Below are positions 21,073 to 63,763 of a stretch of 64,000 nt of DNA, in pieces. The notes under the pieces are model-generated. The model saw nothing but the letters and a program-made list of their open reading frames with translations, had not been told where the DNA came from and made no database searches. Source of the DNA: Pseudomonadota bacterium (GTDB lineage Bacteria > Chloroflexota > UBA6077 > JAJPHF01); NCBI GenBank assembly GCA_021325365.1, contig JAJPHF010000102.1, positions 1-64,000 of the forward strand. Reading direction: 5' to 3'. The translations under genes and the position numbers were made by a program. Numbering within the stretch: position 1 is the first letter of the stretch; every line of letters begins with the position of its first letter.

Positions 21073-21927
21073 TTACTCCCAGTGGAAGGTGAGGGCGGCG
21101 GCGAGGGGGGCGGCGACGGACCAGGCGAGGAGGAGCAGGGCCGAGCCGGGGGGCACGTCGGCTGGCTGGGCGAGCGCGCCGCGCAGGGTATCGGCGAGGG
21201 CGGCGGCCGGCAGCAGGTGGCCGATGGCGGCCATCCAGGCGGGCAGGGCGCTGAGCGGCAGGAACAGCCCGCCGAGCAGCAGAAGCACCAGGAACAGCCC
21301 GTTGGCGCCCGCCAGGGTGGCCTCGGGGCGCAGCGTGCCGGCCATCAGCAGCCCCAGGCCGGCGAAGGCCGCCGTGCCGAGCAGCAGCGCCAGCAGCGCC
21401 AGCGCCGGCTCGCCCTGCGGCCGCCAGCCGTAGGCGACGATCGCGAGGCCGACCAACACCACGACCTGCACCACTTCGAGGATGACGACGGAGAGCAGCT
21501 TCGCCAGCACCAGGCCAGCGCGCGGCAGCGGCGTGGCGCCGAGCCGCTTGAGCACGCCGTCGCCGCGCTCGTAGGCGGTGGCAATGCCGAGGTTCGCGAG
21601 GCCGGTGGCGATGACGGCGAGGGCGAGCGTGCCGGGCAGCAGGAAGTCGATAGGGTGTGCAATGGGCACCGGCAGCGCGCCCACGGACATGAAGAAGGCG
21701 AGCAGGACCACTGGGATCACGAGCGTGACGAGCACACTCTCGCCGCGGCGCAAGCTGAGCAGCACTTCGGCCCAGGTCTGCGCGGCGAGCATGCGGGGCA
21801 GCGACGCCGCGCCCCCGGTTGCGCCAGCGGGCGCGAGGTCGTGGGCGCTGAGCCCGCCCCGGGCGCCGAGCGCCGCGCGACTCATGATCTCACCACCCCG
21901 TTCGGAGCGGACCGATACGTCGCTCAT
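21073..21927 (-). CDS. ABC-2 type transporter permease
   Basis: A 284-residue membrane protein with about 40 cytoplasmic N-terminal residues, then six hydrophobic segments: VLVTLVIPVVLLAFFMSVGA, the LLPGTLALAVIATGLANLGI segment, VVILEVVQVVVLVGLAIVAY, and three later ones. The FLLPGTLALAV and RRGESVLVTLV stretches fit ABC-2 exporters with a small extracellular loop. Its ATG overlaps the stop of the upstream ATPase gene (ATGA), so the two are translationally coupled and form one exporter. Substrate unknown; such pairs commonly export drugs or lipids. Confidence 0.9.
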   Translation of the reverse strand: MSDVSVRSERGGEIMSRAALGARGGLSAHDLAPAGATGGAASLPRMLAAQTWAEVLLSLRRGESVLVTLVIPVVLLAFFMSVGALPVPIAHPIDFLLPGTLALAVIATGLANLGIATAYERGDGVLKRLGATPLPRAGLVLAKLLSVVILEVVQVVVLVGLAIVAYGWRPQGEPALALLALLLGTAAFAGLGLLMAGTLRPEATLAGANGLFLVLLLLGGLFLPLSALPAWMAAIGHLLPAAALADTLRGALAQPADVPPGSALLLLAWSVAAPLAAALTFHWE

Positions 21928-22889
21928 CGTAGCTCCCGTCCCGTGAGCCGCAGGAAGACGTCTTCGAGCGACTCCTCGCCCACGCGCACCTCGCTTGGCA
22001 GCACGTCGCGCTCGCGCAGCCAGGCAGCCAGCTCGACGAGCAGATCGCTCGCCGCCCGCGTCTGTAGCGCATACACGCCGGGCTGCGTCTCACGCGCCTC
22101 CATGACTGAGGGGAGGGCGGCGAGCGCGCGCACGTCGAGGCCCGGCGCGGCGCGCAGGCGCACCTGGGTCGCGTCGCCGCGCGTTAGCTCGGCGGGCGTG
22201 CCGAGGGCGATGAGCTGGCCGTGGTCGACGATCGCGACGCGGTCGGCCAGCCGCGCGGCCTCCTCCAGGTAGTGGGTCGTCAGCAGCACCGTCGTCCCGG
22301 CCGTCTTGAGCTGGCGAATGAGGTCCCAGGTGGCGGCGCGCGCCTGCGGGTCCATGCCGGCGCTCGGCTCGTCGAGGAAGAGCAGCTCGGGACGGCCGAC
22401 CAGGGCCAGCGCGAGAGCCAGCCGCTGCCGCTGGCCGCCCGACAGGCGCCGATAGCGCGTGCGGGCGGCGTCTTCCAGGCCGACGAGCGCGAGCAGCGCG
22501 TCGGGGTCGGCGGGGGCGGTGTAGTAGCTGGCGAAGAGGTGGAGCGCCTCGCGCGGCGTGATCGCGCGGTAGAGGCCGGTCTCCTGGAGCATGACGCCGA
22601 TGCGAGCCCGTAGCGCGGCGCCCTGCCGCTGCGGATCGAGGCCGAGCACGCGCACCGTGCCGGCGTCGGGCGCGCGGTAGCCTTCCAGAATCTCCAGGGT
22701 GGTCGTCTTGCCCGCGCCGTTGGGGCCGAGCAGGGCGAACGTCTCGCCGCGCGCCACGCGGAAGCTGATGCCGTCCACGGCGCGGCGGCTGCCATAGGTC
22801 TTGACGAGGCCGTCGACGGCCACGGCGGCACCGTCCGCGCGCTCGTCGAGCAGCGCGGCGCCGCCCCGTGCGGCGGCCGACTCACGCAT
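21924..22889 (-). CDS. ABC transporter ATP-binding protein (ABC-2 exporter)
   Basis: A 321-residue protein with Walker A GPNGAGKTT, Q-loop MLQETGLYRAI, signature LSGGQRQRLALALALV, Walker B LLFLDEPSAGMD and the H-loop LLTTHYLEEAARLADRV, all in one domain of about 235 residues. The C-terminal 80 residues (VRLRAAPGLDVRALAALPSV... SLEDVFLRLTGRELR) are the regulatory extension seen in CcmA/NodI/DrrA-type exporter ATPases. Overlaps the permease gene by four bases; follows ffh by eight bases on the minus strand. Confidence 0.94.
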   Translation of the reverse strand: MRESAAARGGAALLDERADGAAVAVDGLVKTYGSRRAVDGISFRVARGETFALLGPNGAGKTTTLEILEGYRAPDAGTVRVLGLDPQRQGAALRARIGVMLQETGLYRAITPREALHLFASYYTAPADPDALLALVGLEDAARTRYRRLSGGQRQRLALALALVGRPELLFLDEPSAGMDPQARAATWDLIRQLKTAGTTVLLTTHYLEEAARLADRVAIVDHGQLIALGTPAELTRGDATQVRLRAAPGLDVRALAALPSVMEARETQPGVYALQTRAASDLLVELAAWLRERDVLPSEVRVGEESLEDVFLRLTGRELR

Positions 22890-38739: not shown

Positions 38740-40110
38740 ATGACGCTGATCGAGGAGCTGGGGGAGTTTGCGGCGGGCTTGCGGCTGGGCGATGCGCCGC
38801 CCGCCGCGGCTGCCACGCTGCGGCTACACCTGTTCGACACGCTGACCGCCGGGCTGATCGGGATGACCACGCCGGAGGCCCAGGCCGCAAGAGCCCTCCT
38901 CACGGACCTCGGGGCCGGGGAGCGCGCGGCGTCAGGCGAGGGGGCACGGCCGAGCGCACCCCTAGCCGCGTTGGCAGGCTGTATCGTCACGCGCTGCACC
39001 GAGATCGACGACATCGACCTACTGTCCTGCACCACGCCCGGAGCAGTCGTGGTGCCTACCGCGCTCGCGCTCGCCGGGCAAGCCGGCGCCGACGCCGATA
39101 CGTTTCTAGCCGCGCTGCTGGCCGGCTACGAGGCGCTGACACGCTTCGGCCAGGCGGCGGACGGACCGACCATCCTGTACCGCGGCATCTGGCCTACCTA
39201 CCTCGCGGGCGCGCTCGGCGCGGCGGCGACCGCGGCGCGACTCCTCGCGCTATCGGGCCAGGCCACGGCGCACGCGCTGGCGGCGGCCGTTACGCTCAGC
39301 AGCGGCACGAGCGGGCGGGTGCGCGGCCTGTCGTCGCGGTGGCTTACGCTGGGCTGCGCCGCGCAGAATGGCATTCTCGCGGCGCTGGGCGCACGGCACG
39401 GCCTGCGCGGCGACTCGAGCCTGCTGGACGGCGCCTGGAGCGCGACCACCGGCATCGCGCTCGACGGCGCGGCGCTGACGCGCGGCCTGGGGCGCCCCTT
39501 CGCCATCGAGCGGGTGAGCATCAAGCCGTACTGCGCGGCCAAGCAGGTGACCAGCAGCATCGCGGCGTTCGTGGCGCTGCTGGACGAGCGCGTGGTAGAG
39601 CCGACGGCCGTCGAGCAAGTGATCGTGGCCGTGCCGCCGGCCTACGCGCGGATGATCGACCAGCCGGCGCCGCCGCCCGAGCGGCTGGGGGGAATCGCCA
39701 GCGCGCAGCATCAGCTCGCACTCGCGGCCTACTATCGCGACGAGCTGCTAGACGTGCGGCGTCCCGAGCAACATCGGGAGCCGGCGTTTCGAGCGTTGAT
39801 GGAGCGGGTGCAAGTGGTGGCCGACCCCCGGCTGGCGAGCGACTACCCGCGCACCTGGCCGGCGCGCGTCACCGTGCGGTTTGCCGGTGGAGAGGCCACG
39901 CGCGAGGTGAGACATACCGCCGGCGACCCCGGCCACCCCTTCACCTGGGACGACGCCCTCGCCAAAGCCCGTCGCGTCCTGCGCGGCGTGGCCACCCCAG
40001 CCGCCGTGGACCGCCTGGCCACGACCTGTCGAGAGCTGGGCGCGGGCGCCGCACTGAGCGACCTGCGAGCGGCGCTCGCGGCGGCCGGCGGGCCGGGCGA
40101 CGACCGTTGA
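38740..40110 (+). CDS. MmgE/PrpD family protein
   Basis: A 456-residue protein of the MmgE/PrpD (2-methylcitrate dehydratase, cis-aconitate decarboxylase) family. N-terminal helical core: LRLHLFDTLTAGLIGMTTPE, IVTRCTEIDDIDLLSCTTPG (the 'D..D' region where DD(T/H)..... is usual), ALLAGYEALTRFGQ, then WPTYLAGALGAAATAARLLA, GLSSRWLTLGCAAQNGILAA, SIKPYCAAKQVTSSIAAF (the KPYPcC-H-like segment) and a C-terminal alpha+beta domain. The usual '(K)xHPxC' segment here reads KPYCAAKQ, so substrate use may differ. ATG at 38740 with GAGG upstream. It may handle a branched carboxylic acid. Confidence 0.85.
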   Translation: MTLIEELGEFAAGLRLGDAPPAAAATLRLHLFDTLTAGLIGMTTPEAQAARALLTDLGAGERAASGEGARPSAPLAALAGCIVTRCTEIDDIDLLSCTTPGAVVVPTALALAGQAGADADTFLAALLAGYEALTRFGQAADGPTILYRGIWPTYLAGALGAAATAARLLALSGQATAHALAAAVTLSSGTSGRVRGLSSRWLTLGCAAQNGILAALGARHGLRGDSSLLDGAWSATTGIALDGAALTRGLGRPFAIERVSIKPYCAAKQVTSSIAAFVALLDERVVEPTAVEQVIVAVPPAYARMIDQPAPPPERLGGIASAQHQLALAAYYRDELLDVRRPEQHREPAFRALMERVQVVADPRLASDYPRTWPARVTVRFAGGEATREVRHTAGDPGHPFTWDDALAKARRVLRGVATPAAVDRLATTCRELGAGAALSDLRAALAAAGGPGDDR

Positions 40111-40750: not shown

Positions 40751-40800
40751 GGATCGACGCAGAGCCACCACGGCCGGCGGGGCGCTGCCGGCCGTGGTGG

Positions 40801-41694
40801 CTAGGTCTGGAGCGGCAGGATGGCCGCGGCGAGCGCCTCTAGCTCGGCCGTCCAGGAGGCGGGCGGGGCGGCCGGGCGGACGAGAAACTTCGAGACCCCC
40901 GCATCCGTGAAGCGGTGCAGCGTGGCGCGCAGCGCGGGCAGGCCGATGGGGACTAGCTCGCGGGGGTCCACGTCGGGGCGGCGAGCGGCGACGGCGGCCA
41001 CGGCGGCGGGCGGCGTGTCGGCGTGGGCGTAGACGACGATCGCGCCGTAGTGCTCGGGGTCGATGGCGCGGCCCGCTTCGGCGGCGGCCGCCTCGATGGT
41101 GCGGCGGCCGGCGGCGGCCTCGGCGGGCGTGCAGCCGCCGGGCAGCCAGCCGTCGGCGAGCCGGCCGACGCGCCGCAGAGCGGCGGGCGCCCGCCCGCCG
41201 AGCCATAGGTCGAGAGCGGGCTGCACAGGCCGCGGCCGCACGCGCAGGCCGTGATAAGTGAAGCGCACACCGGTATGATCGACAGTGTCCTCGGTCCAGA
41301 GGCGGCGGAGCAGGGGCAGCGTCTCGTCGAGCCAGGCGCCGCGCTCGCGGGGGGCGACGCCGAACGCCGCGCGCTCGGCCGGATCGTCGGCGCCCAGGCC
41401 GAACGCGGGCAGCAAGCGGCCGTCGGAGAGGCGGTCGAGGCTGGCTAGCTCCTTGGCCAGCAGGACGGGGTTGCGACCGGGCAGCACGAGCACGCTGGTG
41501 CCGAGCTTTAGCCGCCGCGTGCGCGCGGCGGCGTAGGCGAGGCCGAGCAGCGGGTCGTAGATGGGGCTGGAGACGCGCTCGGACAGCCAGAGCGAGTCGA
41601 AGCCGAGACGCTCCAGGTCGTCCACGAGGCGGCCGAAGCCGGCGTCGTGGCCATCGCCCTGCACTCCCAGCGCGAAGCCGATCCTCACTTTCAT
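40801..41694 (-). CDS. LLM-class flavin-dependent oxidoreductase (SsuD/methylene-H4MPT reductase-like)
   Basis: A 297-residue luciferase-like protein: GFGRLVDDLERLGFDSLWLS, AAARTRRLKLGTSVLVLPGR, NPVLLAKELASLDRLSDGRL and LPAFGLGADDPAERAAFG, then VRPRPVQPALDLWLGGRAPA. This is the F420- or FMN-dependent TIGR03619-like subgroup rather than a clear SsuD. It is the last gene of the seven-gene minus-strand operon, one base after the preceding lipoprotein gene, which implies tight co-translation. In this setting, beside binding proteins and a sulfopyruvate-decarboxylase-like enzyme, an alkanesulfonate-monooxygenase-type role is possible but not shown. Confidence 0.85.
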   Translation of the reverse strand: MKVRIGFALGVQGDGHDAGFGRLVDDLERLGFDSLWLSERVSSPIYDPLLGLAYAAARTRRLKLGTSVLVLPGRNPVLLAKELASLDRLSDGRLLPAFGLGADDPAERAAFGVAPRERGAWLDETLPLLRRLWTEDTVDHTGVRFTYHGLRVRPRPVQPALDLWLGGRAPAALRRVGRLADGWLPGGCTPAEAAAGRRTIEAAAAEAGRAIDPEHYGAIVVYAHADTPPAAVAAVAARRPDVDPRELVPIGLPALRATLHRFTDAGVSKFLVRPAAPPASWTAELEALAAAILPLQT

Positions 41695-41695
41695 G

Positions 41696-42847
41696 TTAGC
41701 GGTAGGGGCCGAGCTGGGCGGCGGCGCTCTCGATGTGCTGCAAGTCGATGAACTGGGAGAGGTCCACGCGGGCCTGCTGGGAGCCTGTCGCCAGGAAGAA
41801 GTCCTGCTGCTCGTCGAAGCTGTGCAGGTCCATCTTGCCGTCGGGGTCGAGCGCCGATAGCTCCATCTGATCGTAGAGCGCGCGGTCTTTGACGGGGGTG
41901 TGCCGAGTCAGCGAGTCGATCACCTTCTCCCGCGCCGCCGGCTCCCTCTTGAGAAAGGCGTCGTTGTAGACGCGGATGGCCCGCAGGTAGGCGACCATGA
42001 ACTTGGTCCCCAGGTCCGAGCGGCTGAACTCGGGCGAGTAGAGCAAGACTGCTACCTGGTTCGAGGGGTTCACTTGGTAGTCGTAGCCCATCTTCACCAC
42101 GTTGCCCTGGTTGAGCGCGATGGTGGCGAACGGCTCGACGCTCCAGGCGAAGTCCAGGTTGCGATTGGCGAAGGCGGGAATCATGTCGGGGAAGCTCATG
42201 ATCGACATGTCGAGGTCGCCCGGGGTGAGGCCGCCTTGCTTGAGGAAGGCGGTCAGGTCTAGCTCGGGGCTAATGCCCTGGGCCGGCTTGGCGGAGCGCA
42301 TGCCCTTGAGGTCGGCCACGCTCTTGACGCGGCTGTCGGCCAGGTCCTTGCGGAGCAGATAGATGCTGACCGGGAAGCCGGGCGGCGTGGGGTCGCTGTG
42401 GCCCTTGTCGGCCACGATGCGCACGTTGACGCCGGTCCGCAGGGCGTTGAAGAGTCCCGCGCTGGTGGCGCCGCCGCCCACTTCGAGCTGGTTCGTGGCG
42501 AGCGGCGCGACCATGTTGGCGGCCGAGTCGAACGGCGAGGTGTCGATCTCGATACCCTGCTCGGCGTAGTAGCCCTCGTCCATGCCCACGTAGATGCCCG
42601 CGTCGGAGAGCAGGTTCAGCTCGCCGTAACGCACCTTCTGCAAGCCGCCGGACTGGGGCGGCGCCGTGGACACCGGGCTGGCCGCCGTGGGCGCGCTCGC
42701 GGCGAGCGGCGAGGTCGCCGGGGCGCTGGTCGCCGCCGCGGGCGGCGCCGGGGCGGGCGGGGCGCTGCCCCCGCCGCTACAGGCAAGGGCCAGGGCGAGG
42801 GCCGCCGGCAGCGCGGCGGCCAGGACGCGGCGGCGGGATGCGCTCAT
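41696..42847 (-). CDS. NMT1/SsuA-type ABC substrate-binding lipoprotein
   Basis: A 383-residue lipoprotein: signal MSASRRRVLAAALPAALALA with lipobox ALAC, a 45-residue Ala/Pro/Ser linker, then the type-2 binding fold (LNLLSDAGIYVGMDEGYYAE, APLATNQLEVGGGATSAGLF, NVRIVADKG, LKGMRSAKPAQGISPELD, then SFPDMIPAFANRNLDFAW). It shares long stretches with the 62543-63763 protein (SDAGIYV, IVADKG, FPDMI, KDRALYDQM, LDPDG), so the two are paralogues. It should bind a small nitrogen- or sulfur-containing acid at the cell surface. No permease or ATPase gene is near. Confidence 0.88.
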   Translation of the reverse strand: MSASRRRVLAAALPAALALALACSGGGSAPPAPAPPAAATSAPATSPLAASAPTAASPVSTAPPQSGGLQKVRYGELNLLSDAGIYVGMDEGYYAEQGIEIDTSPFDSAANMVAPLATNQLEVGGGATSAGLFNALRTGVNVRIVADKGHSDPTPPGFPVSIYLLRKDLADSRVKSVADLKGMRSAKPAQGISPELDLTAFLKQGGLTPGDLDMSIMSFPDMIPAFANRNLDFAWSVEPFATIALNQGNVVKMGYDYQVNPSNQVAVLLYSPEFSRSDLGTKFMVAYLRAIRVYNDAFLKREPAAREKVIDSLTRHTPVKDRALYDQMELSALDPDGKMDLHSFDEQQDFFLATGSQQARVDLSQFIDLQHIESAAAQLGPYR

Positions 42848-42857
42848 GGCGGCTCCT

Positions 42858-43739
42858 CTACACGCGCACCGGCAAGGCGAGGCCCTCGAAGGTCTTGTCG
42901 GCCATAAAGTCGTCGAGGCCCCAGCGCTCCACCTGGGCGATGATCTCGTCGTACTCGGCGCGCGGGAGCGGCGCGTAGTGGAAGCGCTCGCCCGGGTCGA
43001 AGCGGCTGAAGTCCCAGGGGCGGTCCTGGAACTCCTCGGGGATGCTGTAGCGCCAGAGCGGCAGGCAGCTGGCCGGGTCGCGGGTCAGGTCGGCCTCGGC
43101 ACGCTGCAGCACGCGGAAGAAGCGGTCGAGCAGGGCGCGGTCGTAGCGTGGATCGACCCACCATAGCGTCTTGAAAGTGTTGGCGATGATCGAGCGCAGG
43201 CCGAGCTGGTCGGCCATCGAGATCTGGGGGTCGAGGAGGCTCGTCGCCTCGACCTCGCCCTCGAGCAGGGCGGTGAGCCGCGCGCCGAAGCCGCCGACGT
43301 TCACGGTGTTGATCTGGTCGAGCGGCAGGTACGGCTCGAGGCGGTAGGGCACGTTGAAGTGGCTGCCGGCCCGCATGCCGACGGCGATAGGGACATTCGC
43401 TAGATCCTCGGGGCGCTGGATGGACGAATCGGGGCGCACGTAGATGGCCCAGCGCGCGACGCCGTAGGCGTCGGGCACGAACTTGCCCATGCCGGCGCCG
43501 GCGTTGCACACGGAGCCCCAGGCGCAAGCGTTGGTGATGGTCGGCTCGCCGGCCTGGAAGGGCTGGTCCTGCGGGCGCTCCAGGTATGCCTTGCCCTTCC
43601 ACGACGCCATCTGCCCGCGCACGACGTCCCAGCGAATTTCCGGGTCGATGCCCTCGTCCTGGAAGTAGCCGCGCTCCAGCGCGATCCACTCATGGAGCCG
43701 CATGCCCGTCGGCGAAATAGGCACTCGGGTAAGCGCCAT
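42858..43739 (-). CDS. Signal-less substrate-binding-fold protein (dihydroxyphthalate-decarboxylase-like)
   Basis: A 293-residue protein beginning MALTRVPISPTGMRLHEWIA, without signal peptide or lipobox. It follows the NMT1/SsuA fold: ERGYFQDEGIDPEIRWDVVR, WAIYVRPDSSIQRPEDLANV, PIAVGMRAGSHFNVPYRLEP, FGARLTALLEGEVEATSLLD. ATG at 43739 has GAGGAGAGG upstream. Lack of export suggests a cytoplasmic enzyme or sensor in the style of the protein at 2678-3640. It sits between the decarboxylase-like beta subunit and the exported paralogue, so both forms of the fold occur in one operon. Confidence 0.78.
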   Translation of the reverse strand: MALTRVPISPTGMRLHEWIALERGYFQDEGIDPEIRWDVVRGQMASWKGKAYLERPQDQPFQAGEPTITNACAWGSVCNAGAGMGKFVPDAYGVARWAIYVRPDSSIQRPEDLANVPIAVGMRAGSHFNVPYRLEPYLPLDQINTVNVGGFGARLTALLEGEVEATSLLDPQISMADQLGLRSIIANTFKTLWWVDPRYDRALLDRFFRVLQRAEADLTRDPASCLPLWRYSIPEEFQDRPWDFSRFDPGERFHYAPLPRAEYDEIIAQVERWGLDDFMADKTFEGLALPVRV

Positions 43740-43806
43740 CGCTGCCTCTCCTCTTGAATTCTCTAAGACGTATGGAACGGCCCCCGGCAGGCGCCGGCCC
43801 ACCGCG

Positions 43807-44397
43807 CTACACTGCTCCCACGGGCATTGGCTGCGCCGCCAGGGCGCGGCGGAACGCTTCGCGTGACTCGACGCTGTAAAGGCGGCGGAAGTCGTTCGGG
43901 AAGCGAGTGTCGCCCGGCTCCACGTGAAGGTCTACGAATATGGGGCCTTCCTCGCAGAGGAGGGCCGGCAGCGCCTGCTCCCAGTCCCCCAGCGCGTCGA
44001 AAGCGTAAGCGCGCGGGTAGCCCGCGGCGCGAGCCAGCGCCGGGAAATCCACGCGCCCCACGCCGGGGATGGGAACAGCGCCGTTCGTCTCGTAGGTGCC
44101 GTTCTGGCAGAGACAATGGACCAGGTTCTTGGGCGCCACGTTGGCGATCGTCACCAGCGAGCCGAGGTTCATGAGCAGGCTGCCATCGCCGTCGAGCACG
44201 ATCACGCGCTTGTCCGGACGGCCCAGCGCCAGGCCCAGGGCGTGCGAGGAGCCCTGTCCCATGGCGCCGGTGAACGTGTAGTTCAGCGGATGGGGCGCGA
44301 GGTTGATCCATTCTTGCGCGGCCATGTACACGGCCACCACGATCTCGTCGGTGCGGCGCCGCGCCAGCGCTCGCAGACACTCGTCGCGCTTCATCAT
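43807..44397 (-). CDS. TPP-dependent decarboxylase, beta (PP-domain) subunit, sulfopyruvate/phosphonopyruvate decarboxylase-like
   Basis: A 196-residue protein containing only the pyrophosphate-binding half of a thiamine-diphosphate enzyme: GAMGQGSSHALGLALGRPDK, then VIVLDGDGSLLMNLGSLVTI and NLVHCLCQNGTYETNG (the GDGS...N metal/TPP motif). The partner PYR half is the next gene upstream, the split seen in ComE/ComD sulfopyruvate decarboxylase and phosphonopyruvate decarboxylase. Tandem ATGs at the start. The heterodimer would decarboxylate sulfopyruvate to sulfoacetaldehyde, phosphonopyruvate, or another 3-substituted pyruvate. Confidence 0.85.
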   Translation of the reverse strand: MMKRDECLRALARRRTDEIVVAVYMAAQEWINLAPHPLNYTFTGAMGQGSSHALGLALGRPDKRVIVLDGDGSLLMNLGSLVTIANVAPKNLVHCLCQNGTYETNGAVPIPGVGRVDFPALARAAGYPRAYAFDALGDWEQALPALLCEEGPIFVDLHVEPGDTRFPNDFRRLYSVESREAFRRALAAQPMPVGAV

Positions 44398-44416
44398 GGC
44401 TCTTCTCCCGCCCCTA

Positions 44417-44929
44417 CTACTGCGGCTCCCTGCCGATAAGTAGCACCGTCGGCGCCATCCGCGCGTAGGCGGCTTCGATCGCGGGCACGATCCGCTCCAC
44501 GTCGGCAGGGTCCTCGACGAGCGCGTGCTCCACCCCCATCGCGTCCAGCACCGGCTCCACGATCCGTACCCCGTAGCTCGCGGACTCGGTGGGCCGGACG
44601 CCGGGCTCCTTCGACAGCAGCCCGACCATCATGCAGACGGGCGAGGCCAACTCGACGGCCGTGCCGCGCACGGCGTTCAGCGAGTCCAGCAGGCCCGTGT
44701 ACTGGATGAGCAGCAGCGCGCGCTGGCCCGCGGCGAACAGGCCGCTACAGATCGACACGCCCTCGTCCTCTTTGCAGACCTGTACGACCCGCAGGTCCGG
44801 ATCCCCCAGCAGCGTCTTCAGCAGGTGGTGGCTGGTCGTGGCGTCGGGCAGGGCCACGACGAACTGGATTCCCGCCCGCTTGATCTCGTGGATGATCGCG
44901 TCGGCAGTGAGCACCTCGGTAGCTTGCAA
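44417..44929 (-). CDS. TPP-dependent decarboxylase, alpha (PYR-domain) subunit, sulfopyruvate decarboxylase-like
   Basis: A 170-residue PYR domain: ADAIIHEIKRAGIQFVVALP, DATTSHHLLKTLLGDPDLRV, then VQVCKEDEGVSICSGLFAAG, where the Glu after KED is the conserved TPP-activating glutamate, and LLLIQYTGLLDSLNAVRGTA, ASPVCMMVGLL. This is the ComD pattern. It lies 19 bases upstream of the beta subunit gene; the two form one enzyme. Sulfopyruvate is favoured by the subunit split and sulfur-type neighbours, but phosphonopyruvate and related keto acids cannot be excluded by eye. Confidence 0.85.
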   Translation of the reverse strand: MQATEVLTADAIIHEIKRAGIQFVVALPDATTSHHLLKTLLGDPDLRVVQVCKEDEGVSICSGLFAAGQRALLLIQYTGLLDSLNAVRGTAVELASPVCMMVGLLSKEPGVRPTESASYGVRIVEPVLDAMGVEHALVEDPADVERIVPAIEAAYARMAPTVLLIGREPQ

Positions 44930-44962
44930 CCGCGCACCCTCCTTCCCAGCGCCAGCGCCGGC

Positions 44963-45472
44963 TCAGCGATACTCCGGCGCATTCTCCTGCTGCTCCAGGT
45001 AGAAGCCGGTCTCGTCCTGGAGCGGCATGTAAATGAAGGCGATCCACTTGCAGGACTGGCCGGCGTGGCGGTTGAAGTGCTGGTGCTCAACGCCGCCCGG
45101 CTTGATCGGCAGGAGGATCAGATCGCCGGCTTCCCAATCGATGCGCTCGCCGTCCACCTCCGTGTACCCTTGACCCTCCAGCACGAAGATGGCGAGGCCG
45201 CCCTGGTGGCGATGCTTGCCTGAGTGGGTGTGGATGTCGTGCTGGAACACGAGCCATTGGTGCAGGGCGCTGCCGGTGTCGGAGGAGCGGGCGACGTAGA
45301 AGCGCAGCCGGCCCATGCGCGTCTGCTCCCACGGCTGCTCGCCAGCGCGCACGACGATGCGGCCGTGGAGCGCGCGCTCGCGGAGTTCGAGCTGCGCTTT
45401 CACGAGCCGCTCGTAGCCGTCGGGCGGGAGCGGCTCCCGCTGCCGCGTGCGAGTTCGCTCGAGGTCTGCCAT
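44963..45472 (-). CDS. Cupin-domain protein
   Basis: A 169-residue protein. A helical N-terminus (YERLVKAQLELRERALHGRI) precedes a single cupin: QWLVFQHDIHTHSGKHRHQG then GLAIFVLEGQGYTEVDGERI, DWEAGDLILLPI and GVEHQHFNRHAGQSC. The metal-binding set HxH...E...H is present (H-T-H / K-H-R-H and EHQHFN). It resembles gentisate-dioxygenase-like or storage-type cupins in which ring or keto acids bind. Second gene of the operon, 57 bases after the first lipoprotein gene. Substrate unknown; dioxygenase, isomerase or sensor are all possible. Confidence 0.8.
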   Translation of the reverse strand: MADLERTRTRQREPLPPDGYERLVKAQLELRERALHGRIVVRAGEQPWEQTRMGRLRFYVARSSDTGSALHQWLVFQHDIHTHSGKHRHQGGLAIFVLEGQGYTEVDGERIDWEAGDLILLPIKPGGVEHQHFNRHAGQSCKWIAFIYMPLQDETGFYLEQQENAPEYR

Positions 45473-45529
45473 ACACCTTCCTCAGCGCGTTCGTCGAGCT
45501 GGTGGGGAGATTGGAGGCGGCCAGCCGCG

Positions 45530-46624
45530 CTAGCGCGGGGCGCTGGCGACCTGGCGCGCGCGCTCGGTGATCGTGCGGTCTTTCCACTGGCTCTCGGGCG
45601 GCAGCGCCGGCAGGTCCTCCAGCTCCTGCTGAATCTTGATCACCACCTCCGTCGGCTCAGGGCGCAGGTCGCTGGAATCGACCAGCGTGGGGTGCTGCAC
45701 GATGTAGTAATCGTACATCTGCTCGGCGACGGGGCGCGGCGTCTGCGTCTCGTCCATCCAGATGGTAATGAGCGCCTCGCGGTTGGCGGGATCGTGCGCC
45801 CACTCCTTGCCGCGGATGAGCCCAGCGACAAAGTTGACGAGGTCGTCGCGGTTCTGGGGAGTGTCCAGCCAGTCGCGGCGCACCCACCAGGAAACGAACG
45901 AGTACTGGGGCACCACGTCGGAGAAGCTGAGCAGGATGCGGTAGCCGTCGAGCTTGGCGATAAAGTTCACCGGGTCGGCGATGACGGCGGCCTGGATGCC
46001 GCCGGTCTGAAGCGCCGCGTAGCGCTGGGGATTGCCGCCCGCCTGGGTCAGCTCGTAGTCGTCGTCGCCGAGGCCGCGCCCGCGCAGCATCACGCGCGCC
46101 ACCGTGCCGGTGCCCGCCTTGAGGCTGGAGACGCCGACTTTCTGGCCGCGCAAGCCGTCGACGCTCGTAATATCCGGCCGCGACACCAGGTCGTAGGGCG
46201 CCTCGAGGTTGTGGTCGGCGACCATCGTGAGAGGAGCGCCCTTCGACAGCGCGGTGATCGCGGAGTCGGTTGGCGACTGGAGCACGTCGAGCCCGCCGCT
46301 ACTGAGCGCGCTGATCGCCTCGTTGGTCTGGATCGACACACGCTCGGGCGCAAGGCCCAGCTCGGCGAAGATGCCCGCGTGCTGGGCGGCCCAGATGGTG
46401 TACCAGTAGCCCGAGAGGCCGATAAGGCCCATCTGCAGGGCGCGCGGCTCGCGGGCCGGCGCCGCGGCGGGCGCGGCGCCGGACGGGGCAGTAGGGGCAG
46501 CCGCGGAGGGTGCGCTGCCCGCCGGCGCCCCCGCGGGGGTGGCGGGCGGGGCCGCGCAGGCCAGCGTCAGGGCGGCGATGGCAACCAGCAGCATCGAGCG
46601 GCTCCAGGCGGGGCGACCGGCCAT
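45530..46624 (-). CDS. NMT1/SsuA-type ABC substrate-binding lipoprotein, first gene of the decarboxylase operon
   Basis: A 364-residue lipoprotein with signal MAGRPAWSRSMLLVAIAALT and lipobox TLAC, an Ala/Pro-rich linker, then GLIGLSGYWYTIWAAQHAGI, SSGGLDVLQSPTDSAITALS, LTMVADHN, DGLRGQKVGVSSLKAGTGTV and SWWVRRDWLDTPQNRDDLVN. It is more divergent from the other three lipoproteins than they are from one another. It is transcribed first in the operon (then cupin, decarboxylase alpha and beta, two more binding folds, LLM). ABC permease and ATPase genes are absent nearby. Confidence 0.87.
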   Translation of the reverse strand: MAGRPAWSRSMLLVAIAALTLACAAPPATPAGAPAGSAPSAAAPTAPSGAAPAAAPAREPRALQMGLIGLSGYWYTIWAAQHAGIFAELGLAPERVSIQTNEAISALSSGGLDVLQSPTDSAITALSKGAPLTMVADHNLEAPYDLVSRPDITSVDGLRGQKVGVSSLKAGTGTVARVMLRGRGLGDDDYELTQAGGNPQRYAALQTGGIQAAVIADPVNFIAKLDGYRILLSFSDVVPQYSFVSWWVRRDWLDTPQNRDDLVNFVAGLIRGKEWAHDPANREALITIWMDETQTPRPVAEQMYDYYIVQHPTLVDSSDLRPEPTEVVIKIQQELEDLPALPPESQWKDRTITERARQVASAPR

Positions 46625-59601: not shown

Positions 59602-60753
59602 CTAGGGAGCGCCGTCCAGAGTGCGGACCGCGTCATCGGCGAACTGATAGTCCAGGAATTCGTCCAAGTTAGGCCGCTGGGGCACGTAGCCATGCTCCAC
59701 TTGCCAGTTCAAGAACGTCGTCAAAGTCTGACTGTTGATGCGTCCATCCCGCGCGACGGCGAGATAGCCTGCCTTGCTCAGGATCTGGGGGGAGATATTG
59801 GCGGATTCGGCTAGCAGGGCGATCACCGCGTCGCGATCGCGGCCATACTCCATAGCGTCCATGTAGTCGCGGGCAGCGCGGACATAACCGACGGCGAACC
59901 GGCGCGCGACATCGGACTGCTGATGGCCGAACTTCTCCGCGAAGACGATCATTGCGATCTCGTAGTTGGGAATGTAATCGCCGGCGTCCCCAATGCGCGC
60001 GGCTAGTCCCCGGTCCTCGGCGATAGCGCCCCAAGGCTCGGGCACGATCGCTAGGTCGGCGCTGCCACCACCGAACGCGGCCAGGATTTCGGGGAACCCC
60101 ATATACTGCACGTCGGCAAGGTCGGATACGGTGAGCCCGACTTCGTCCAGCATGCGGTCCAACGCCGGCTCCGCAGGGTTCCCGCGGGCGGGATGCGCCA
60201 CGCGCTTACCCCGCACGTCGGACGGACTCTGAACTACCGGTTGCCCGCCGGCGAGGCGTGAGAGCACCGGATAGCCGCGATTTCCGGGGGTAAGCAGCGA
60301 GGCGTCCAGGGCCAGAACGAGCCGGATGTCGCGAGCGAGCGCATTGAAGAAAGACGGCAGGGGCGGCGCCGAGGCCACGTCGAGGTCGCCACGACTGAGA
60401 GCTGGCAGCGCATCGCCGGCACTCCCAAATTGCTCGCTGTGCAGGTCGATCCCTAGTTCGCGGAAATAACCGCGTGCATCCGCGAGGTGAATGATGTTGC
60501 CAAGCCCCTGAGTTCGCGCCGCTCGGACGACGGCCGGGACTGGCGAGGGCTGATCTGCGCCCTGCGCCGCGCTACCTGACGCCGGCGGGGCGGCAGCGGC
60601 CGGCGGGGCCTGACTGGTCGCCGTCGATTGGACACCGGGGGTAGGCGCAGCCGGGGACCGGGGGGCACCGGTACACCCGGAAAACGTCAGTACGCCGCTG
60701 CTCAGCAACACGAGACATAATCGCCGACCACTCACGATACCGATACCAATCAT
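59602..60753 (-). CDS. NMT1/SsuA-type ABC substrate-binding lipoprotein
   Basis: A 383-residue lipoprotein. ATG at 60753 (AAGG six bases upstream) starts MIGIGIVSGRRLCLVLLSSG, lipobox FSGC. After an Ala/Pro linker: LGNIIHLADARGYFRELGID, LSRGDLDVASAPPLPSFFNA, DVRGKRVAHPARGNPAEPAL, PEILAAFGGGSADLAIVPEP then WGAI, and VGYVRAARDYMDAMEYGRDR. It is related to the lipoproteins at 41696 and 62543. Divergent from the sensor kinase gene 84 bases away, which may regulate it. No ABC permease gene nearby. Confidence 0.88.
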   Translation of the reverse strand: MIGIGIVSGRRLCLVLLSSGVLTFSGCTGAPRSPAAPTPGVQSTATSQAPPAAAAPPASGSAAQGADQPSPVPAVVRAARTQGLGNIIHLADARGYFRELGIDLHSEQFGSAGDALPALSRGDLDVASAPPLPSFFNALARDIRLVLALDASLLTPGNRGYPVLSRLAGGQPVVQSPSDVRGKRVAHPARGNPAEPALDRMLDEVGLTVSDLADVQYMGFPEILAAFGGGSADLAIVPEPWGAIAEDRGLAARIGDAGDYIPNYEIAMIVFAEKFGHQQSDVARRFAVGYVRAARDYMDAMEYGRDRDAVIALLAESANISPQILSKAGYLAVARDGRINSQTLTTFLNWQVEHGYVPQRPNLDEFLDYQFADDAVRTLDGAP

Positions 60754-60799
60754 GCACAACCTTATGCGGATCGAGTTGGTGTGCAGGGCCATCTTTCAC

Positions 60800-62542: not shown

Positions 62543-63763
62543 TCAGGGGGCGCGGAGCAGCGTCCGGTCGGGCGCGGGGCCGACGCGGCCGAGGCGCTGG
62601 TGCGCGTAGTCGAGATACTGGTAGTCGACGAAGTCGGCCAACGGCTGGCGCTCGGCCACAAGCCCGTGGCGCTCGTACCAATCCTGGTCGGCGGCGATGG
62701 AGGCGAGGTTCAGGTAGCCGTCGGGATCCAGGCCCGGCGGCACCATGCGGTCGTAGAGCGCAGGGTCCTTCACGGTAGTGCGCTCGCTCAGAATCTGGAC
62801 GATGGCGGCCTTGTCGCGCCCGTGATCGAAGGCGGCGACGACGTCGCGGACGCCGCGCAGGTAGGCGACCATCCAGCGCCGCGCCGCCTCGGGCTGGTGC
62901 TGATAGAAGCTCGGCGCGTACAGGATGCCGGCGATCTGCTGATCGGGGTATAGCTCGTCGGCGCCCTTGAAGCGCACGCCGACGCTGCGGCTCACGGCCG
63001 TCGTGACGAACGGCTCGATCAGCGCCGCCGCGTCGACGGAGCCGTTGGCCAGCGCCGTAATCATATCGGGAAAAGGCATATTCACCACGTCGAGCGCGCT
63101 GAGGTCGAGGCCGAAGGCGCGGAGGCCGCTCTCGATCTGCAGCTCCATCGGGGAGTTGGCGGAGGGCGACGCGACCTTCAGGCCCCGCAGGTCGGCGAGC
63201 GTCTGCACGCGGCCGCTGTCTATCAGGTCCTTGCGCACCACCAGTGCGTTGAACCCATGGCCGCGCGAGTTGAGCCCCTTGTCGGCCACCAGCTTGACGG
63301 GAATGTCGCGCGAGATCGCGTTGAACAGGCTGGGCGTGGGGGCACCCGCGCCCACGTCGAGCTGGCCCGCGGCGAGCGGGGCCGTCATCTCGGGGGTGGC
63401 GCCGAACGGCTCGAGGCTCGCGTCGAGGCCCTCGTCCCGGAAATAGCCACGCGCGGCGGCGACGTAGATGCCCGCGTCGGAGAGCGAGCTGAGCACTCCG
63501 ATCCGGACGGCGACGGGGGGCGCGAGCGGCGCCGCGGCGTCGGCCGGGGCGGGCACATCGGCGGGCGGGGCAGGGCCGCGCGCGACGACCGGGGCCGCCG
63601 GGCCGTGGGCGGCGGACGCGGAGGGCGGCGGGGTAGCCGAGGCGGGCGCCGGCGAGGGGGCGGCAGGCGACGGGGCGCTGGCGCCGCAGGCGACGAGCAG
63701 GGTCAGGGTCAGCAGGGCCAGGGCAGGGCGAACGGCGATGATCGCCTTCCTCGATCGCGTCAT
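62543..63763 (-). CDS. NMT1/SsuA-type ABC substrate-binding lipoprotein
   Basis: A 406-residue lipoprotein: signal MTRSRKAIIAVRPALALLTL, lipobox LVAC, a 60-residue Ala/Pro-rich linker, then VLSSLSDAGIYVAAARGYFR, APLAAGQLDVGAGAPTPSLF, FNALVVRKDLIDSGRVQTLA, DLRGLKVASPSANSPM and NMPFPDMITALANGSVDAAA. Close paralogue of 41696-42847. ATG at 63763 has AAGGAGA nine bases upstream; the frame is open further upstream but only through Arg-rich sequence. It converges with the kinase gene. Upstream of it (63764-64000) I see no gene; a TATACT at 63994 may belong to a gene beyond the window. Confidence 0.88.
   Translation of the reverse strand: MTRSRKAIIAVRPALALLTLTLLVACGASAPSPAAPSPAPASATPPPSASAAHGPAAPVVARGPAPPADVPAPADAAAPLAPPVAVRIGVLSSLSDAGIYVAAARGYFRDEGLDASLEPFGATPEMTAPLAAGQLDVGAGAPTPSLFNAISRDIPVKLVADKGLNSRGHGFNALVVRKDLIDSGRVQTLADLRGLKVASPSANSPMELQIESGLRAFGLDLSALDVVNMPFPDMITALANGSVDAAALIEPFVTTAVSRSVGVRFKGADELYPDQQIAGILYAPSFYQHQPEAARRWMVAYLRGVRDVVAAFDHGRDKAAIVQILSERTTVKDPALYDRMVPPGLDPDGYLNLASIAADQDWYERHGLVAERQPLADFVDYQYLDYAHQRLGRVGPAPDRTLLRAP

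Follow-up and report, generated by a model that had tools for sequence, protein, structure and literature searches.

Which acid is handled by an operon that combines a two-subunit thiamine diphosphate (ThDP) decarboxylase with three proteins of a substrate-binding fold, a cupin and a luciferase-like monooxygenase (LLM)-class oxidoreductase? We address this question for contig JAJPHF010000102.1, of which 64,000 nucleotides (the window) were analysed and in which seven open reading frames on the minus strand fill positions 46624-40801. A preliminary description of the locus took the ComD/ComE-type split of the decarboxylase to point to sulfopyruvate or phosphonopyruvate. The split itself is borne out by Pfam and NCBIfam domain matches. 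The substrate assignment, however, is not supported, since the family cut-offs are missed, a tree branch separates the enzyme from both families and its motifs differ; judged from its sequence, the window decarboxylase resembles a sulfur or phosphorus enzyme but is probably not one. As a tentative best guess, held with less than even confidence, we propose that the operon serves the catabolism of a small carboxylic acid, aromatic or N-heteroaromatic, or of a 2-oxo acid made from one.

The seven genes

In gene order, the operon comprises:

45530..46624, minus strand: SBP1, NMT1-type substrate-binding lipoprotein, 364 amino acids (aa), first gene (Pfam NMT1 40.6 bits, cut-off 20.5)
44963..45472, minus strand: single-domain cupin, 169 aa (Pfam Cupin_2)
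44417..44929, minus strand: alpha subunit of the split ThDP decarboxylase, 170 aa, TTG start (TPP_enzyme_N; NCBIfam TIGR03845)
43807..44397, minus strand: beta subunit of the split ThDP decarboxylase, 196 aa (Pfam TPP_enzyme_C; TIGR03846)
42858..43739, minus strand: signal-less protein of the type II periplasmic binding protein (PBP-II) fold, 293 aa, probably cytosolic (predicted structure)
41696..42847, minus strand: SBP2, NMT1/SsuA-type substrate-binding lipoprotein, 383 aa (Pfam NMT1 43.4 bits)
40801..41694, minus strand: LLM-class oxidoreductase, predicted F420-dependent, 297 aa, last gene (Bac_luciferase; TIGR03854)

The gaps measure 57, 33, 19, 67, 10 and 1 bases, which confirms the gene order and close packing first described. 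The same seven genes were returned by a codon-usage gene caller, with two different starts (alpha 44914, first lipoprotein 46594). From this spacing we infer that the genes are co-transcribed. Shine-Dalgarno-like letters lie 5' of the alpha TTG (AAGGAGGG) and of the binding-fold gene ATG (AGGAGAGG).

The decarboxylase and its relatives

The two subunits show the layout which ComDE requires, with N- and C-terminal ThDP domains on separate chains, the score of alpha for TPP_enzyme_N (25.1 bits) lying slightly below the Pfam cut-off of 26.8. ComD and ComE are also the top-ranked NCBIfam models for alpha and beta, though both scores stay far below the equivalog cut-offs, with 77.9 of 147.95 bits against TIGR03845 (ComD) and 110.9 of 221.5 bits against TIGR03846 (ComE). 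The phosphonopyruvate decarboxylase (Ppd) model TIGR03297, against which a split protein is disadvantaged because the model is full length, gives 110.7 bits for beta and 28.3 for alpha of the 312.5 bits at its cut-off; beta thus scores ComE and Ppd equally. Identity of the window enzyme to ComDE and Ppd proteins over their cut-offs is 23-27% (23-26% for ComDE over alpha and beta together). In the annotated ComDE pair of Leisingera caerulea, whose gene set we take to be of the 2,3-dihydroxypropanesulfonate (DHPS)-degradation type, beta is 36.4% identical to the window beta. The ThDP fold is shared with Ppd/AepY. Among solved beta subunits the nearest is RhiF (63.2 bits) of the split form RhiE/RhiF (PDB 9iz3); alpha alone has no solved relative at E 0.01. 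Alpha carries a CKEDEG motif, in which we place the catalytic glutamate of ThDP enzymes, and beta carries GDG...N, presumably the ThDP-Mg motif, together with a NGTYETNGAVPIP motif.

Two-subunit ThDP decarboxylases are called rare in an excerpt of PMC12746152 (2025), which has them known, before LumK/LumL, only from rhizocticin and coenzyme M biosynthesis; RhiE/RhiF and ComDE likewise appear as the earlier two-subunit cases in an excerpt of PMC12141560. Against this rarity stand at least 530 confirmed relatives in a scan of genome contigs and 6038 matches at E 0.001 or better in a protein search, figures into which more remote ThDP proteins may have entered. No relative turned up in the viral collection. 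The closest beta homologue, 95% identical, is named as from a Chloroflexota bacterium, which makes Chloroflexota the probable phylum of the window as well. The best 80 contig loci were kept, and in all of them the alpha match lies 5' of beta; alpha and beta are paired in 104 of 104 sets (these 80 loci, the window and 23 others). Motifs close to the ThDP site are distinctive: beta reads YE[TAVS]N in the 80 loci and the window, where the six ComDE rows have YGSTG and the four Ppd rows [HY]ES[TV]G, and alpha reads QxTG in 80 of 80 loci, as against QNTA in ComDE and QN[SD]G in Ppd. A further alpha motif, [LV]PD, is found in 79 of 80, the remaining one being interrupted by a contig end.

Phylogeny leads to the same separation. 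In a maximum-likelihood tree of 48 of the 104 pairs, the window forms a group (100/95) with eight others, whose names assign them to Binatota, Myxococcota, Pseudomonadota, Thermodesulfobacteriota, Chloroflexota and 'Deltaproteobacteria'; the six ComDE and four Ppd rows lie across a 100/99 branch. A second tree of 36 rows (33 of the former pairs and 3 plasmid pairs, with three ComDE and four Ppd rows) repeats this with a 100/100 branch, and in both trees the four over-cut-off Ppd rows form a group of their own across the branch from the window enzyme. The rows were hand-picked to span the set, so that many loci, 7 of the 16 window-like ones among them, stayed outside, and RhiE/RhiF were not included; the trees are unrooted and therefore show separation, not age. 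The comparison with ComDE and Ppd, which had been proposed as a check of the substrate assignment, hence places the window enzyme with neither.

The best 80 loci share motifs unlike those of ComDE and Ppd, and those placed in trees fall outside both. Many metagenome proteins among the protein-search matches are named sulfopyruvate or phosphonopyruvate decarboxylase; should these names be incorrect, environmental genomes are being credited with more organosulfur and phosphonate capacity than they have. Another split ThDP group in Chloroflexota adjoins Amidohydro_2 (L133) or a PF04199 cyclase (L139, L140).

Gene neighbourhoods of the decarboxylase

Neighbour families around the 80 alpha-beta loci were found within 5 kb with 1-7 seed proteins each and checked by Pfam on examples; because seeds per family are few, the counts are lower bounds. 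Aminotransferases adjoin 21 of the 80 loci, Rieske proteins 15, Amidohydro_2 12, GMC (glucose-methanol-choline) oxidoreductases 9 (6 of these among the 16 window-like loci), 2-hydroxyacid dehydrogenases 8, aldehyde dehydrogenases 5, PF04199 cyclases 5 (all window-like), and xanthine-dehydrogenase-type and LLM proteins 4 each. Three of these families (2-hydroxyacid dehydrogenase, GMC oxidoreductase, aminotransferase) could make 2-oxo acids. The PF04199 cyclase in 5 of 16 window-like loci led us to consider decarboxylation of isatinate or benzoylformate, which we discarded for the operon, none of its seven genes being such a cyclase. Binding-protein matches occur at 24 loci, with a permease or ATPase match in just 2 of those 24, a count from two seeds per transporter family by which such genes may be overlooked. 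The enzyme is thus a movable component that serves in varied gene settings, often accompanied by a lone binding protein.

L014 and L054 each have a relative of 4,5-dihydroxyphthalate decarboxylase at no more than 5 kb from alpha-beta, and a distant split pair in Rhizobium tumorigenes is accompanied by a GMC oxidoreductase, an amidohydrolase, a ring-hydroxylating dioxygenase and a molybdenum hydroxylase. In genome G043 (L250), three genes separate a set of binding protein (weak match), permease and ATPase from a weakly cupin-like gene (22.9 of 27.2 bits), after which comes a window-like alpha-beta pair, whose beta is 72% identical to that of the window.

The signal-less binding-fold protein

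Pfam gives no match over threshold for the signal-less protein (16.5 of 20.5 bits), while structure prediction yields a PBP-II fold of the SsuA type; a first model from 14 close sequences was poor (predicted local distance difference test score 58.7) and was not used. Together with the Pfam NMT1 matches of both lipoproteins, this substantiates the three binding-fold proteins of the preliminary description. Its term 'capture proteins' may suit the two NMT1-type lipoproteins; the signal-less protein need not capture anything. By eye, neither it nor 13 close relatives have a leader, and the starts of these relatives fall in the same column (7), within three residues (5) or 12 residues later (1). 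On this basis the protein probably stays inside the cell.

Cys72, Trp74, Ser126 and His127 are invariant in a 27-row alignment. In contrast to SsuA, TauA and NrtA, the protein thus combines the lack of a leader with an invariant Cys and His and has no adjacent ATP-binding cassette (ABC) partner. DszB, Thi5 and MqnD are enzymes of the binding fold. Cys27 of DszB (from PDB titles) has no counterpart, residues 1-71 of the window protein being free of Cys and its first Cys being residue 72; the profile alignment of residues 21-43 with DszB 36-58 is weak (0.9 bits). BLASTP finds no similarity to the homologue in L014, which itself is 41.7% identical to an annotated 4,5-dihydroxyphthalate decarboxylase.

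Relatives of the protein keep company with catabolic enzymes. Amidohydro_2, searched with one hidden Markov model of which two of three seeds come from counted loci, is found at 7 of 21 loci of signal-less relatives, compared with 0 of 19 weaker NMT1-type loci, a mixed control with a hydrophobic stretch 5' of the match in 9 of 19 (0 of 21 for the signal-less loci), and with 3 of 50 ThDP loci, the three being one place. Another signal-less locus, L081, has Amidohydro_2 by Pfam and was left uncounted since the controls lack a Pfam scan (hence 7, not 8); the fragments L105 and L116 stand in neither group. Beside other relatives lie LigXa-type Rieske (L087, L097, L098), BphC-type (L095) and cysteine-dioxygenase-type (L100) proteins. 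Most family members are named transport proteins or are unnamed, and this conserved signal-less family is an enzyme candidate in its own right, the second at this locus.

Three of nine haloarchaeal matches were examined (L171, L174, L175, on plasmids), and in each a cupin adjoins a row of three genes with binding-protein annotation, no permease being among the annotated neighbours shown; in L175 the products of these genes lack a leader by eye. In L173, a Geminicoccaceae plasmid, a signal-less homologue and a complete ABC set are followed by a binding protein directly 5' of an LLM oxidoreductase, the same order as SBP2 and LLM in the window.

Cupin, lipoproteins and oxidoreductase

The cupin shares the motif [HQ][ST]GxHxHQGG ... 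GGVxHxH[FY]N with seven Chloroflexota homologues. All six of its PDB matches at E 0.01 are gentisate 1,2-dioxygenases, from which it differs in having one domain of 169 aa and not two; the corresponding NCBIfam model gives 27.7 of 442.1 bits. Of 400 Chloroflexota genomes, 10 have homologues at E 1e-15 or better. Nine slices around these genes, drawn from five of the ten genomes, were examined; two of them, L251 and L256, share part of a contig, and the L256 cupin is a weak homologue (5e-21). Within 5 kb of a cupin match we found UbiD-like proteins in four (L252, L256, L257, L259; at 6.7 kb in L258), xanthine-dehydrogenase-type proteins in three (L251, L257, L261) and binding-protein matches in seven, with a permease or ATPase in L251, L256 and L258. 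A split ThDP beta lies near three of the nine (L252, L256, L257), accompanied by alpha in L252 and L257; no alpha was found near the L256 cupin. The UbiD, molybdopterin and ThDP domains were Pfam-confirmed on examples. One Chloroflexota genome (G126, L253 and L260) has nine matches to the window cupin, some adjoining TctC-type binding-protein matches. One homologue of the cupin and one of the signal-less protein come from contigs of equal length (5913), a weak hint that the two genes are linked elsewhere too, since on a rough estimate chance agreement of this kind is not rare.

SBP1 has a lipoprotein-like N-terminus by eye, and its best NCBIfam model, SaoX, gives 51.5 of 300 bits. SBP2 reaches 56.7 of 163.5 bits with TIGR01728 and has SsuA and TauA as PDB matches. 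The LLM protein exceeds the cut-off of the F420 family TIGR03854 (312 bits, cut-off 295.6) and reaches 47.5-49.1 of 510-518 bits with alkanesulfonate monooxygenase models.

Proposed function and alternatives

An aromatic or heteroaromatic acid is our best guess because relatives of the cupin and of the signal-less protein are found in aromatic-acid settings and this kind of decarboxylase is used in several catabolic settings. SBP1 and SBP2 would capture the acid outside the cell and pass it to an ABC permease encoded elsewhere; as first described, the seven genes include neither an ABC permease nor an ATPase. Three proteins would act on the acid within the cell: the cupin, which is gentisate-dioxygenase-like, the LLM oxidoreductase of F420 type, and the signal-less protein, the last as an enzyme or, less likely, as an intracellular carrier or sensor. 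The alpha-beta enzyme, with ThDP bound between its subunits, may remove CO2 from a 2-oxo acid or, as LumK/LumL does, from a ring carboxylate beside a ring nitrogen. LumK/LumL of Nocardioides simplex is described in the excerpt of PMC12746152 as a two-subunit ThDP quinoxaline-carboxylate decarboxylase, whose gene cluster also encodes xanthine oxidase, Rieske dioxygenase and the cupin LumY. By description, the operon studied here has in common with it a two-subunit ThDP decarboxylase and a cupin and may likewise be catabolic; it differs in that no Rieske protein, xanthine oxidase or P450 is among the 27 window genes covered by the Pfam scan (the seven of the operon and 20 further ones, a part of the window).

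Several results weigh against this proposal. None of the seven genes besides the cupin encodes an aromatic enzyme, no second copy of the complete seven-gene order was found, and neither the window cupin nor the signal-less family was found within 5 kb of any of the 80 alpha-beta loci. In genome G078 the signal-less gene and alpha-beta are on separate contigs. The split ThDP subunits near cupins are of a type divergent from that of the window. Aminotransferases, Rieske proteins and aldehyde dehydrogenases are absent from all 16 window-like loci, their matches all lying at the remaining 64, and the loci counted are related by descent. The Rhizobium tumorigenes pair, from a Lum-like gene set, joins the tree by a long branch on the side of ComDE and Ppd and therefore supports the kind of cluster, not kinship. 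As to the signal-less protein, its best structural match is SsuA and its nearest folds are sulfonate binders, a haloarchaeal relative keeps Cys-x-Trp and lacks the GSH motif (by eye), and the shared seeds and mixed controls of the amidohydrolase count belong here as well.

These points have to be set against four other explanations. The signal-less protein might not be an enzyme at all and might sense a ligand inside the cell or act as a regulatory subunit, in the manner of the NrtC and CmpC binding-fold domains. This idea is compatible with the other readings and seems somewhat unlikely, as no ABC ATPase is adjacent to its gene, Cys72 and His127 are invariant and its relatives adjoin oxygenases and amidohydrolases. 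We consider it distinctly unlikely that the locus consists of two neighbouring modules, SBP1-cupin-alpha-beta and PBP-SBP2-LLM, which share a promoter or are merely side by side: the widest gap, 67 bases, does separate these halves, alpha-beta elsewhere occurs without the signal-less gene, and on a 3.9 kb contig of G078 that gene (85%) adjoins an SBP2 homologue (50%, interrupted by the contig end) without alpha-beta, but the seven genes share a strand and no gap between them exceeds 67 bases.

A general operon for decarboxylation of non-aromatic short-chain 2-oxo acids, derived from amino acids or hydroxy acids, would fit the aminotransferases, 2-hydroxyacid dehydrogenases and aldehyde dehydrogenases near other loci of the clade. 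It is quite improbable, given that none of the three families is among the seven genes, that aminotransferase and aldehyde dehydrogenase are missing from the window-like loci, and that relatives of the cupin and of the signal-less protein keep partly aromatic company. The least probable of the alternatives is the organosulfur or organophosphonate route originally suggested, in which alpha-beta would act on an acid like 3-sulfo- or 3-phosphonopyruvate, the binding proteins would capture a sulfonate and the LLM protein would desulfonate it. A sulfonate ligand keeps some plausibility from the structural match to SsuA and from SsuA and TauA being among the few solved sequence relatives of the signal-less protein and SBP2. 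Against the route stand the missed ComDE and Ppd cut-offs, the separation in both trees, the differing motifs and the LLM scores, which favour the F420 family over alkanesulfonate monooxygenases; in addition, no sulfoacetaldehyde, DHPS or phosphoenolpyruvate-mutase genes were recognised among the 27 genes scanned.

In the literature searched, no known pathway with the same gene order was found, in agreement with the preliminary description, and at the level of listings nothing was recognised on the operon, its ThDP class or the signal-less family. A stronger version of the proposal, namely an undescribed Chloroflexota pathway for such acids that joins a further widespread class of two-subunit ThDP enzymes, neither ComDE nor Ppd, to a cytosolic SsuA-fold protein turned Cys/His enzyme, is one that we regard as unlikely.

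Surroundings of the operon

A further feature lies at the 3' end of the operon:

40763..40802: perfect 16-nt inverted repeat with an 8-nt loop, situated between convergent genes and sharing bases with the end of the operon's last gene at its stop

No terminator-like T run was found at this repeat. Among the 20 further window genes scanned, Pfam identifies an ABC-2 exporter pair at 21073-22889. Two more NMT1-type binding-protein genes lie at 59602-60792 and 62543-63763 (minus strand), which together with SBP1 and SBP2 makes at least four in 64 kb. The gene convergent with the operon (38740-40110, plus strand) is of the MmgE/PrpD type, and MmgE/PrpD also adjoins split ThDP genes on plasmids of Halalkalicoccus (L207) and Deinococcus taeanensis (L209).

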